From positions 1-24,079 of the IMG/VR virus record IMGVR_UViG_3300010389_000139: a stretch of DNA of 24,079 nt; one strand, written 5' to 3'. Under the pieces are notes generated by a model. That model searched no databases, had not been told where the DNA came from, and saw only the letters and a program-made list of their open reading frames with translations. The stretch comes from a virus. This document shows, one piece after another, positions 2,124-5,748 of the stretch (position 1 is its first letter; each line of letters opens with the position of its first letter). The translations under genes were made by a program, and so were the position numbers.

Positions 2124-3068
2124 ATGCAGCCTGACGCCTTCAAAACTTATCTGAATGCGATAGGCAACTATCCCTTGCTAAGTCCTGATCAAGAGATTGA
2201 GCTGTCAAGGCAAATTCATCGAATGCTTGAGCTGAAAGAGCTTGACCGTGAATTGACAGCGCAAGAAAAGCGACAAATTAAAGTTGGAGAACGCGCCAAA
2301 GAAAAGCTCATTAAAAGCAATTTAAAGCTTGTCGTTCACATATCAAAGCGATATTTTAGGCGCCTCGTCTCTAACAACATGGAGCTTATCGATTTAGTGC
2401 AAGAGGGCAATATTGGCTTGGATCGTGCTGCCGAAAAGTTTGACGGCACGAGGGGCTACAAATTCAGCACTTACGCTTATTGGTGGATAAGGCAAGCAAT
2501 CACAAGGGCAATTGATACAAGCGAGCGTGTAGTAAGGATTCCTGCCAACTCCTTAGAAAAATTATTCAGGGTTTTTAAATTTCAACACGAGCACTACATC
2601 CATAACCATCGCTATCCAACGTTATCCGAAATGGCGGCTCATGTCGAAATGAAAGAAGATGATTTAATGATGTTGCTTGAAAGATCAACACCACATAAAA
2701 GCCTTGACATGCTGGCGACAGAAGACGGTCATAAACTCTTAGACCTTATGGCAGATCAGTCTTACCTTGATGATGATTACACGCCTTCAGAAACTAAAGA
2801 ACGCCACGAAACCTTGCATGACGCTTTAGGCGCCTTAAGCGATCAACAGCGTCAAATTATTGAAATGTATTATGGCCTAAAAGACGACAAAGAGCATAGC
2901 CTAAAAGAAATAGGCGAAGCTTTAAAAATGTCTCGTGAATGCGTACGCAAGAACCGTGATCGTGCTCAACGCATCCTAAGACAACGCTTTAGTCTTTCAA
3001 TCGGAAAACAGGATCCGCCGCCACCAGTTCATGCGCCTGTCCTGTTCGACTTCAAAACTTTCTCGTAA
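2124..3068 (+). CDS. Phage-encoded sigma-70 family RNA polymerase sigma factor
   Basis: A 314-residue sigma factor that would direct host RNA polymerase to chosen promoters. Region 1.2 is at residues 4-35, with a Met-Leu-Glu-Leu-Lys-Glu-Leu linker typical of cyanobacterial primary and group-2 sigmas. Regions 2.1-2.4 span about 58-140 and include 'YKFSTYAYWWIRQAITRAI' (112-130), where the tryptophans that melt the -10 element and the Gln and Thr that read it are intact. Region 3 is at about 140-200 and region 4 at 225-295. In the region 4.2 recognition helix, Ser-Arg-Glu-Cys-Val-Arg-Lys-Asn-Arg replaces the usual Arg-Glu-Arg-(Ile/Val)-Arg-Gln-Ile-Glu. A Pro-rich tail follows. There is no long region 1.1, and no clear Shine-Dalgarno precedes the ATG. 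Likely host-acquired; promoter class unknown. Confidence 0.93.
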   Translation: MQPDAFKTYLNAIGNYPLLSPDQEIELSRQIHRMLELKELDRELTAQEKRQIKVGERAKEKLIKSNLKLVVHISKRYFRRLVSNNMELIDLVQEGNIGLDRAAEKFDGTRGYKFSTYAYWWIRQAITRAIDTSERVVRIPANSLEKLFRVFKFQHEHYIHNHRYPTLSEMAAHVEMKEDDLMMLLERSTPHKSLDMLATEDGHKLLDLMADQSYLDDDYTPSETKERHETLHDALGALSDQQRQIIEMYYGLKDDKEHSLKEIGEALKMSRECVRKNRDRAQRILRQRFSLSIGKQDPPPPVHAPVLFDFKTFS

Positions 3069-3997: not shown

Positions 3998-5119
3998 TTA
4001 AGGCTTCACCAAGATAGCCCATCCTGTTGCATTTCCATCAACTTCCCAGCGTTTTAACCAATTGTTGCGACTGTATTTAATACGCTTGCCAGCTGTAAAT
4101 GAATTGTCAATGTATCCACCGTTGGCAACGTCAGCCTCACCATTGGGATCGTTAAAAACGAAGGCGTCTTCGGTATAGCCAATGCAGCAACTCCAGTGCC
4201 CGCCACCATGAGGCGCAGAGGCTGAACCATAATGCAACCAACCAACAGCAACAGGACGATTATTTCTGATCTCGTTTTCAAGCACTGCTGCTGTGCCGTC
4301 AGTAATAAATTGGGCATTCAAGCCAAGATCACGCAACGCTAAAACCTGCGCGTCACTTGATGTTGTGTCGCCAAATTTTGCACGGATTGCATTGTACTGA
4401 TCATCTGAACTGACCTTGCCGTAATACTTAGCGATCATTGCGCAAGTACTGGAAAAGCACTCTCTGTAGCCTGTGCCGCTTTTATTGTCAAGTTGATATT
4501 CATAAGGAACGTCTAAAATCCGCTGGTTGCTTGACTGAAAACCTTGATCCTTCATCAGGCGAATTAACTTTTCCGCATAACCAGGATCCGTTGCATATCC
4601 TTCTTTGACGAGCAATTTTGCACATTCGTCGGCACTTGTCGCACAATTTACGCCTTTATAGCCTTTAAAATCTTTGTACCAACGACCAACAAGATATCCA
4701 ACGCAAGCGTTTAACGTAGGAAAATTGATAAAGCTATCCGTAATTTCAATCCACTGTCCATCAATAAACTCTTTTGTAAGAACGCTGGCACCGTCACCTT
4801 TTAAACCGAAGAAGTTATTCTTTGCTGAAGTATGCTTGCCCCAGCCAGACTCAAGCGCCCATTGAGCTGCAACACACTCGGGATACTTGGCGCCAGCACG
4901 CTTGGCCGCATCAATCACACCATCCCAGGAGTTAGGCGAACTATCCGCTTTGTCTGGAACAGCTGAAGACCAAGTGTTATACCAATTTTGGTCACGGTTA
5001 AACACATCAGGAGAAGCCTTCAAGATTTGCGCTTCAAGCTCTTGCAGAGCTGCGTTTTGATGCGGTGCGCCCTTGTAGTAGCGAAACAGGTCAATCAGTC
5101 TGATCGGAGTCTTGCTCAT
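3998..5119 (-). CDS. Two-domain endolysin: glucosaminidase plus C39-like peptidase
   Basis: Predicted lysis enzyme of 373 residues. After an N-terminal segment (1-55, 'LIDLFRYYKG...') comes a GH73-like glucosaminidase domain (about 60-190). Its 'AAQWALESGWGKHTSAKNN' motif (84-102) includes the probable catalytic Glu90. A C39-family papain-like peptidase domain follows (about 202-373): 'DVPYEYQLDN' lead-in, catalytic Cys221 in Arg-Glu-Cys-Phe-Ser-Ser-Thr-Cys, His308 in 'GGGHWSCCIGY', and Asp324 in 'VFNDPNGE'. Together they could cut both the glycan and the peptide parts of peptidoglycan. No signal peptide is seen, so export should depend on a holin. The ATG at 5119 was chosen because the protein pattern begins there; the frame opens further upstream from a TTG at 5212. 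It overlaps the preceding frame by 29 bases. Confidence 0.85.
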   Translation of the reverse strand: MSKTPIRLIDLFRYYKGAPHQNAALQELEAQILKASPDVFNRDQNWYNTWSSAVPDKADSSPNSWDGVIDAAKRAGAKYPECVAAQWALESGWGKHTSAKNNFFGLKGDGASVLTKEFIDGQWIEITDSFINFPTLNACVGYLVGRWYKDFKGYKGVNCATSADECAKLLVKEGYATDPGYAEKLIRLMKDQGFQSSNQRILDVPYEYQLDNKSGTGYRECFSSTCAMIAKYYGKVSSDDQYNAIRAKFGDTTSSDAQVLALRDLGLNAQFITDGTAAVLENEIRNNRPVAVGWLHYGSASAPHGGGHWSCCIGYTEDAFVFNDPNGEADVANGGYIDNSFTAGKRIKYSRNNWLKRWEVDGNATGWAILVKP

Positions 5120-5327
5120 ACCAAGGTGCGCGAATGTGTAAGTCATCAAGACGTATTGGCGGCAAAGTCGCTGGAGGCTGCGAACGATGCCACTCTTGCT
5201 CGGCTTGATCAAGCTTATGATTTAAAGTTGCATGGAATTTTTTGCGCTGAATTACTCGCTGCAAGGTCTCCCACTGTGAACGGGTGTTGAATCGTATGAT
5301 CCAACGACCGTCTGAAGGAATCAGCTC
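5091..5327 (-). CDS. C-terminal extension of the lysis-region membrane protein, reached by predicted -1 frameshift
   Basis: A 78-residue stretch beginning Glu-Leu-Ile-Pro-Ser-Asp-Gly-Arg-Trp-Ile-Ile-Arg-Phe-Asn, followed by a Trp- and Arg-rich amphipathic helix ('QWETLQRVIQRKKFHATL') and an acidic C-terminus. It reads as real protein: hydrophobic and charged residues alternate sensibly and there is no low-complexity shadow pattern. Its frame has no ATG or GTG between the preceding in-frame stop and its own stop at 5091. Only a TTG inside (giving about 55 residues) or an ATT after an AAAGAG sequence could start it alone. It lies in the -1 frame directly after A AAA AAG (5333-5327) of the 49-residue gene, so a fused product of 126 residues is predicted. 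The last 29 bases overlap the endolysin gene. Confidence 0.6.
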   Translation of the reverse strand, partial: ELIPSDGRWIIRFNTRSQWETLQRVIQRKKFHATLNHKLDQAEQEWHRSQPPATLPPIRLDDLHIRAPWYEQDSDQTD

Positions 5328-5470
5328 TTTTTTGCCTTTAATGCTCGCAGCGCAGTGAACATAAGCTGAATCACGGAATTGTCCTTGAGCTTGCTCATGC
5401 CGATAAGCTCAGATGCCGCTGCCACGACAACCCAAAAGGCAGGATGGGCAAGGATTTGTTCAACGTGCAT
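5321..5470 (-). CDS. Short membrane protein of the lysis region, frameshift donor
   Basis: A 49-residue protein that starts Met-His-Val-Glu-Gln-Ile-Leu-Ala-His-Pro. It has one hydrophobic stretch (about residues 11-24, 'AFWVVVAAASELIG') and an amphipathic basic C-terminal half ending Leu-Lys-Ala-Lys-Lys-Ser. That shape, and the position just before the endolysin, suits a small holin-like or lysis-timing protein, though the hydrophobic part is short. Codons 46-48 plus the preceding base pattern form the heptamer A AAA AAG at 5333-5327, two codons before the TGA stop. No clear Shine-Dalgarno sequence precedes the ATG. Confidence 0.65.
   Translation of the reverse strand: MHVEQILAHPAFWVVVAAASELIGMSKLKDNSVIQLMFTALRALKAKKS
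5327..5333 (-). other. Candidate -1 ribosomal frameshift site A AAA AAG
   Basis: On the minus strand the codons GCA AAA AAG AGC TGA end the 49-residue gene. The heptamer A AAA AAG fits the X XXY YYZ rule and equals the well-known slippery site of E. coli dnaX. A shift of -1 leads into GAG CTG ATT and an open frame of 78 codons. Only a weak 4-bp hairpin (CTGA/TCAG, five-base loop) is seen two bases downstream, so a stimulatory structure is not obvious. Confidence 0.55.
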
Positions 5471-5499: not shown

Positions 5500-5748
5500 C
5501 TATTGGCTGGCTTTGCCTTCAAGTGCAGCAAGCCTGACATCATGGCTATTCAGCTTTGAATACATCTCACGTCGATCTTCTTTCATGTCCTGATGCAGCT
5601 CTTCAAGTTTGCCAGCGATGCTTTCCACCGCCATCGTCAGCCTGATGACAGCTTCGCGTGATTCGTTGTTGCGCTTGCTAAAGCCTGTTGCGGATAAACC
5701 AGCCACACCAATGGAGGCGCCTACAACTGCAGCAACTAACTCAATCAT
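5500..5748 (-). CDS. Small membrane-anchored coiled-coil protein of the lysis region
   Basis: An 82-residue protein. Residues 3-20 form an N-terminal Gly/Ala/Val-rich membrane helix, and residues 28-80 a charged coiled coil ('SIAGKLEELHQDMKEDRRE' in the middle). It would sit in the inner membrane with the coiled coil on one side. Together with the neighbouring 92-residue protein it resembles holin or spanin-like lysis helpers, but no named family is certain. A perfect AAGGAGG Shine-Dalgarno lies 6 bases before the ATG, the strongest ribosome-binding site in this part, so high expression is likely. It ends 29 bases before the next small membrane protein. Confidence 0.7.
   Translation of the reverse strand: MIELVAAVVGASIGVAGLSATGFSKRNNESREAVIRLTMAVESIAGKLEELHQDMKEDRREMYSKLNSHDVRLAALEGKASQ

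Follow-up and report, generated by a model that had tools for sequence, protein, structure and literature searches.

Two forms of a small membrane protein appear to be produced by many viruses that infect marine and freshwater picocyanobacteria, through ribosomes slipping one base back near the end of its gene. The junction was examined in a viral DNA of 24,079 nucleotides (the whole stretch analysed, hereafter the window), where the gene of a 49-residue membrane protein, ORF1, gives way at the heptamer A AAA AAG to a second open frame, ORF2. This junction very probably undergoes -1 ribosomal frameshifting, and comparison of relatives strongly supports joint selection on its slippery site and its second frame.

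ORF1, ORF2 and the endolysin gene that comes next are all encoded on the minus strand of the window. ORF1 (MHVEQILAHPAFWVVVAAASELIGMSKLKDNSVIQLMFTALRALKAKKS; 5321-5470), the zero-frame product, ends GCA AAA AAG AGC TGA, with its stop at 5323-5321, and the heptamer lies in its phase at 5327-5333. In the -1 frame, ORF2 (5091-5327, stop at 5093-5091) has 78 open codons (5327-5094), opening GAG CTG ATT CCT (ELIPSDGRW...RAPWYEQDSDQTD). Read after the shift, it would form a 126-aa fusion with ORF1, with the expected junction peptide ...KAKKELIPSDGR. The end of ORF1, the heptamer and the 78-codon frame had been pointed out in an earlier sequence-only reading and were confirmed on the minus strand. 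The 78 codons of ORF2 hold no ATG or GTG and, leaving aside the CTG that overlaps the TGA, no NTG occurs until a TTG 21 codons in, at 5264. The endolysin (3998-5119, minus strand; 373 aa) combines a glucosaminidase with a C39-like peptidase (Pfam PF01832, E=3.9e-20, and PF13529, E=1.5e-9; PHROG 10051 endolysin, E=2.9e-149), and its ATG (5119) sits within the final 29 nt of ORF2. On the other side of ORF1 stands the gene of an 82-aa protein (5500-5748, minus strand; PHROG 26178, labelled unknown function) with a hydrophobic segment at its N-terminus followed by a charged region, probably a coiled coil. Two further features of the region may be mentioned. The endolysin has about 243 residues in KBS-S-2A as against 373 in the window, suggesting that the C39-like domain comes and goes among relatives, and a sigma-70-like factor is encoded near the lysis genes (2124-3068), in the same place as in KBS-S-2A and S-CBS1. 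Taken by itself, an open frame of 78 codons is mildly unusual, and the heptamer and frame alone are within chance. Since AAAAAAG is not rare in the window (9 occurrences, 10.6 expected), the question had to be decided by relatives.

A tblastn search with the 49-aa ORF1, together with two scans of IMG/VR (80 loci each), gave 100 junctions after deduplication. The tblastn matches comprised the siphoviruses KBS-S-2A, S-CBS1, S-CBS3 and S-EIV1, the T7-like podoviruses S-B28, WH11-B and 7B11-B, and others. The -1 frame is open and recognisable as ORF2 at 84 junctions, and every one of these keeps both the frame switch and an in-phase heptamer, which answers the question, put forward in the sequence-only reading, of whether relatives would do so. 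The heptamer is AAAAAAG at 83 of them and GGGAAAG in S-EIV1, where the same switch occurs at G GGA AAG. At these 84 loci the zero-frame stop (TGA, TAA or TAG) comes 0-2 codons past the heptamer; complete ORF2s run for roughly 47-95 codons beyond it and usually end in an ...APW/SPW motif. The homologues of the window ORF2 are 62% identical to it in KBS-S-2A and 61% in S-CBS1. The sole exception seen among loci selected by ORF1 is L013, where a -1 stop falls directly after the heptamer, before the CTG; its sister L098 is open. No single-frame fusion of ORF1 with ORF2 was seen among about 145 loci.

The codon before AAA AAG may be GCA, GGA, CCA, TCA, ACA, CAA, GTA or GAA, so that Ala, Gly, Pro, Ser, Thr, Gln, Val or Glu precedes Lys-Lys, and its third base is always A. 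Over 20 clusters below 75% identity, formed to drop near copies, this pattern has a chance of about 1e-11, and the use of AAA AAG, given Lys-Lys, a further chance of about 1e-12. Among 37 divergent representatives, synonymous identity is 1.00 at the three heptamer codons, against 0.33, 0.65 and 0.65 expected; no other codons reach 100%, those upstream staying near the expectation from codon usage. In the -1 frame, the dN/dS of ORF2 itself is 0.16 for siphoviruses and 0.43 for podoviruses, and over the first nine codons it is 0.12 and 0.29, respectively; the other two frames of this DNA give 1.0-1.7, with at least 1.2 where the -1 frame gives 0.16. Purifying selection on ORF2 is already in force at the first codon past the heptamer, so the constraint sets in with the heptamer and does not wait for a start codon further along. 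The frameshift proposed in the sequence-only reading is strongly supported, and the TTG or ATT start that it had listed as an alternative is disfavoured.

An independent set, selected without ORF1, was obtained from a scan seeded solely with ORF2 of the S-CBS3 type (56 loci, 43 distinct junctions). Thirty-three of these junctions carry A_AAA_AAG, four C_CCA_AAG and two G_GGA_AAG, which makes at least 39 of 43 with an efficient heptamer in phase, while a separate scan found two more loci with G_GGA_AAG (L156, L157). C_CCA_AAG, G_GGA_AAG and A_AAA_AAG are the most efficient -1 heptamers measured in E. coli (PMC4066793), and short of selection for -1 slippage there is little that would account for all three occurring at the same junction. 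The other four junctions are diverse: L243 has C_CCA_AAA, L251 ends at the contig edge, L242 has lost the heptamer and L252 is ambiguous. In L242, CCG AAG stands in place of the heptamer and a GTG start overlapping the stop is retained, possibly an intermediate between a frameshift and a separate gene. In L252 (400-520), a possible slippery site, T TTT TTC in phase, separates an end resembling that of ORF1 from an ORF2 relative, with a -1 stop two codons upstream; the case was left uncounted because an internal ATG makes it ambiguous. At yet another locus (L245, 420-930), G_GGA_AAG joins an apparently different small N-terminal membrane module (MDTAAIIFITTVAVGAIDKIIERFYPNSKVNNVIDLVLRFLGTIPPSGKP) to the same ORF2 family. 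This looks like module swapping across the frameshift site, and supports the fusion as the selected product.

Natural controls point in the same direction. In L090, nested beside its sister L083, which has both heptamer and ORF2, ORF2 is gone, the end of ORF1 reads GCA AAG AAA TGA and the endolysin ATG overlaps the stop as ATGA. In the S37-C6 group Lys-Lys is retained but written AAG AAA or AAG AAG, and ORF2 is absent; L159 and the P60/S-CBP types have neither heptamer nor ORF2. The ORF2 relatives in S-CBS2 and in a Cyanobium contig (L161) begin with a GTG at the stop, and there the heptamer is absent. The heptamer and an own start codon are nearly mutually exclusive, L239 and L241 carrying both (C_CCA_AAG plus an overlapping GTG start). 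The sequence-only reading had named a separate start for the second frame in relatives as evidence against a frameshift. Such starts do exist in a few distant relatives (S-CBS2, the Cyanobium contig and L242) and, as these are without the heptamer, they act as controls rather than as a refutation. Taken with the conserved heptamer and switch and the substitution of other efficient heptamers, joint loss with ORF2 gives strong support to the programmed -1 frameshift proposed there.

We propose that ribosomes translating the 49-aa gene would slip one base back at A AAA AAG, before they reach the zero-frame stop. Termination at this stop, giving the short protein, is the expected fate of most ribosomes; a minority would read 78 further codons and yield a 126-aa protein, in which the shared membrane part is followed by a charged, helical C-terminal domain. 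We infer both the ribosomal nature of the shift in vivo and its efficiency. The account as a whole, with a -1 slip on A AAA AAG yielding a short and a 126-aa form of a lysis-cassette membrane protein, seems to us likely, and we hold it with good confidence.

The frameshift might be real and yet have as its purpose the setting of endolysin (or terminase) translation via the downstream start, the extension being secondary. Shifted ribosomes would cross the endolysin start region, which could couple endolysin translation to the shift as a second role. The downstream ATG does lie inside ORF2, mostly 14-32 nt ahead of its stop, and where ORF2 was lost, in L090, the endolysin start came to overlap the ORF1 stop directly. 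We consider this purpose unlikely, because the ORF2 protein is under clear purifying selection and its C-terminal family also occurs as stand-alone proteins. It is a good deal less probable that ORF2 is a separate protein, made without any frameshift through termination-coupled re-initiation at a near-cognate codon that shares bases with the stop (CTGA in the window). At 62 of the 84 loci the codon overlapping the stop is CTG, distant relatives use GTGA or TAGTG starts, and the -1 stop of L013 falls just ahead of the CTG. Yet this CTG is the automatic result of a C before TGA, and re-initiation fails at 20 of the 84 loci, among them those of all the podoviruses and of S-CBS3, in which the overlapping codon is GTA, CTA or TTA and ORF2 is conserved all the same. 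It also leaves unexplained why the heptamer shows 100% synonymous identity, why G GGA AAG or C CCA AAG can replace it, and why it disappears when ORF2 is lost or a GTG start is gained. Slippage of RNA polymerase on the A6 run, with an edited mRNA coding for the fusion, would fit the presence of this run in most relatives, but we give it very little credence: six A make a short run by the standards of bacterial transcript slippage, relatives with G GGA AAG or C CCA AAG switch frame without any run longer than three, at which point the idea fails, and only a ribosomal model needs the heptamer to be placed in phase. Finally, a sequencing error or a pseudogene, which a homopolymer region and disrupted frames might evoke, has a negligible probability, as the same heptamer and switch recur in six separately sequenced isolates (KBS-S-2A, S-CBS1, S-CBS3, S-B28, WH11-B and 7B11-B), which excludes the one-base error in A6 once considered as an alternative, the same switch is found in S-EIV1, more than 100 metagenomic loci agree, and dN/dS is well below 1 in both frames.

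Returning to the ribosomal -1 slip, the same heptamer A_AAA_AAG, read by tRNA-Lys(UUU), serves E. coli dnaX and the IS3 family. These have Shine-Dalgarno-like and stem-loop stimulators, whereas none is evident at the ORF1-ORF2 junction. The sole anti-Shine-Dalgarno affinity lies 45-48 nt upstream of the heptamer, with no Shine-Dalgarno-like stimulator seen upstream, and the stretch in question encodes Lys-Asp (AAGGAC-like codons), conserved at the amino-acid level. Folding of 39 representatives found no localised stem beside the heptamer; mild structure extends across ORF2 (mean z about -0.6 to -1.2). Stimulators of either type are common at -1 sites but not obligatory; as no conserved one was found, the efficiency of frameshifting may be low. 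The one cyanobacterial draft genome examined, the Cyanobium genome that holds L161 and not necessarily that of the host of the window phage, has among 36 tRNA matches a single tRNA-Lys, with anticodon UUU, although in a draft a second one could be missing. A tRNA-Lys(UUU) on its own is the slip-prone arrangement of E. coli.

What the two proteins might do must be read from their predicted features and their neighbours. ORF1 matches PHROG 22542 (E=1.5e-32). Its one membrane segment is marginal and contains a conserved Glu (hydropathy 1.5-1.9; 1.61 over residues 6-24 in the window), and its AlphaFold2 model (pLDDT 78.5) has helices at 10-25 and 33-47, the second amphipathic. ORF2 is charged, not hydrophobic, and is predicted to fold as one long helix (residues 20-51) with a flexible tail (pLDDT 75); the model has no match in a viral structure library, and a PDB sequence search returned only weak coiled-coil-like matches to troponin T. 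Neither product matches Pfam or NCBIfam, PHROG 22542 and 15106 are both labelled unknown function, and no holin or antiholin family was matched by either product in Pfam, NCBIfam or PHROG. A homologue of the 82-aa gene is directly upstream of ORF1 in 83 of the 84 loci; directly downstream is the endolysin in 68 and, in 10 T7-like loci, the small terminase. The holin gene of T7 stands at this position before the small terminase. From gene order, then, the siphovirus loci are lysis-type cassettes and the podovirus loci occupy a T7 holin-like position. A holin/antiholin role is plausible, and the two products would be membrane proteins with a shared anchor. The extended form would modulate the short form in the same membrane, holin or holin partner being the most likely role; antiholin-like modulation thus seems likeliest, with endolysin coupling as the alternative. 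More tentatively, and with some doubt, one may imagine a lysis timer of holin/antiholin type, its effector-to-inhibitor ratio fixed by -1 frameshifting and not by dual starts, across cyanophage siphoviruses and T7-like podoviruses. Were this true, the state of the host translation machinery at late infection would set the time of lysis.

The C-terminal part of ORF2 has relatives elsewhere. The motif that ends the podovirus type, ETGxFGxDGWSIxIxxP, also ends stand-alone proteins of cyanomyoviruses (cluster T4-GC 410, L147-L153), which belong to PHROG 6464 and 3316. The relation of ORF2 to GC410 extends over this C-terminal motif only; the podovirus type matches well (hhalign E=1e-8), and for the siphovirus type a direct comparison gives a probability of 3%, too low to establish it. 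Because relatives of this part are separate genes in cyanomyoviruses and in S-CBS2, the fusion is not universal.

Several known systems share features with this one. In dual-product holins (lambda S105/S107; SPP1 24.1/24.1* and 26/26*), a single lysis gene likewise gives a pair of related membrane proteins. In lambda, S105 and S107 have different start codons in one frame, and it is their N-termini that differ; the same holds for both SPP1 pairs (PMC6316719), whereas the ORF1 forms would differ at the C-terminus, by a 78-aa domain. Such an extension is seen in the SPP1 tail tube, where a frameshift just before the stop adds an 87-aa C-terminal domain to the minor product gp17.1* of the gp17.1/gp17.1* pair (PMC6316719), but this is a +1 shift at CCCUAA, in a structural protein. 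Tail assembly chaperones (lambda gpG/gpGT, HK97-like, phiCbK) also have an X_XXY_YYZ -1 site near the end of the short gene, a minor C-terminally extended product and interchangeable heptamers; phiCbK gp93/gp94 shifts at AAAAAAC or GGGAAAC, and these interchange between relatives (PMC3556154). Chaperones are cytosolic and encoded before the tape measure, while ORF1 is a membrane protein beside the endolysin. Identity with G/GT was rejected, ORF1 being flanked by the 82-aa gene on one side and by the endolysin or small terminase on the other, and not followed by a tape measure, and no sequence relation was found between ORF1 or ORF2 and these chaperones. Lysis functions are tied to overlapping frames in MS2 L and a lactococcal lysin (cited in PMC10885494); L is a separately initiated protein, unlike an ORF1-ORF2 fusion, and the lactococcal case concerns a lysin and not a small membrane protein.

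Among the open-access papers searched, none was found that describes -1 frameshifting for a small lysis-cassette membrane gene or for any cyanophage gene, a novelty that is provisional since subscription journals were mostly outside the scope of the search. The KBS2A announcement and the S-LBS1 paper make no mention of frameshifting or of a slippery sequence. ORF2 is absent from the annotations of KBS-S-2A (L002, 6418-6623) and WH11-B, where the stretch leading up to the following gene is left blank. It is annotated from an internal codon as S-CBS1 gp23, S-CBS3 gp22 and S-EIV1 4385-4621, and the S-EIV1 record leaves ORF1 unannotated (loci concerned: L002, L008, L009, L004 and L005). A hidden second half of the protein would thus have been overlooked or cut short in the records of KBS-S-2A, S-CBS1, S-CBS3, S-EIV1, WH11-B and S-B28. 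The junction is preserved across large evolutionary distances and provides, at one place, a natural series of interchangeable heptamers. A two-form membrane protein may tune the timing of host lysis, and the junction offers a cheap route to testing lysis timing in cyanophages, a major cause of picocyanobacterial death. As a last observation, four contigs (L158, L160, L162 and L159) binned as Hyphomonadaceae, 'bacterium TMED88', Planctomycetota and Blastopirellula carry the cyanophage-type gene, three with heptamer and ORF2 and L159 with neither; these are probably phage contigs misbinned into metagenome-assembled genomes.
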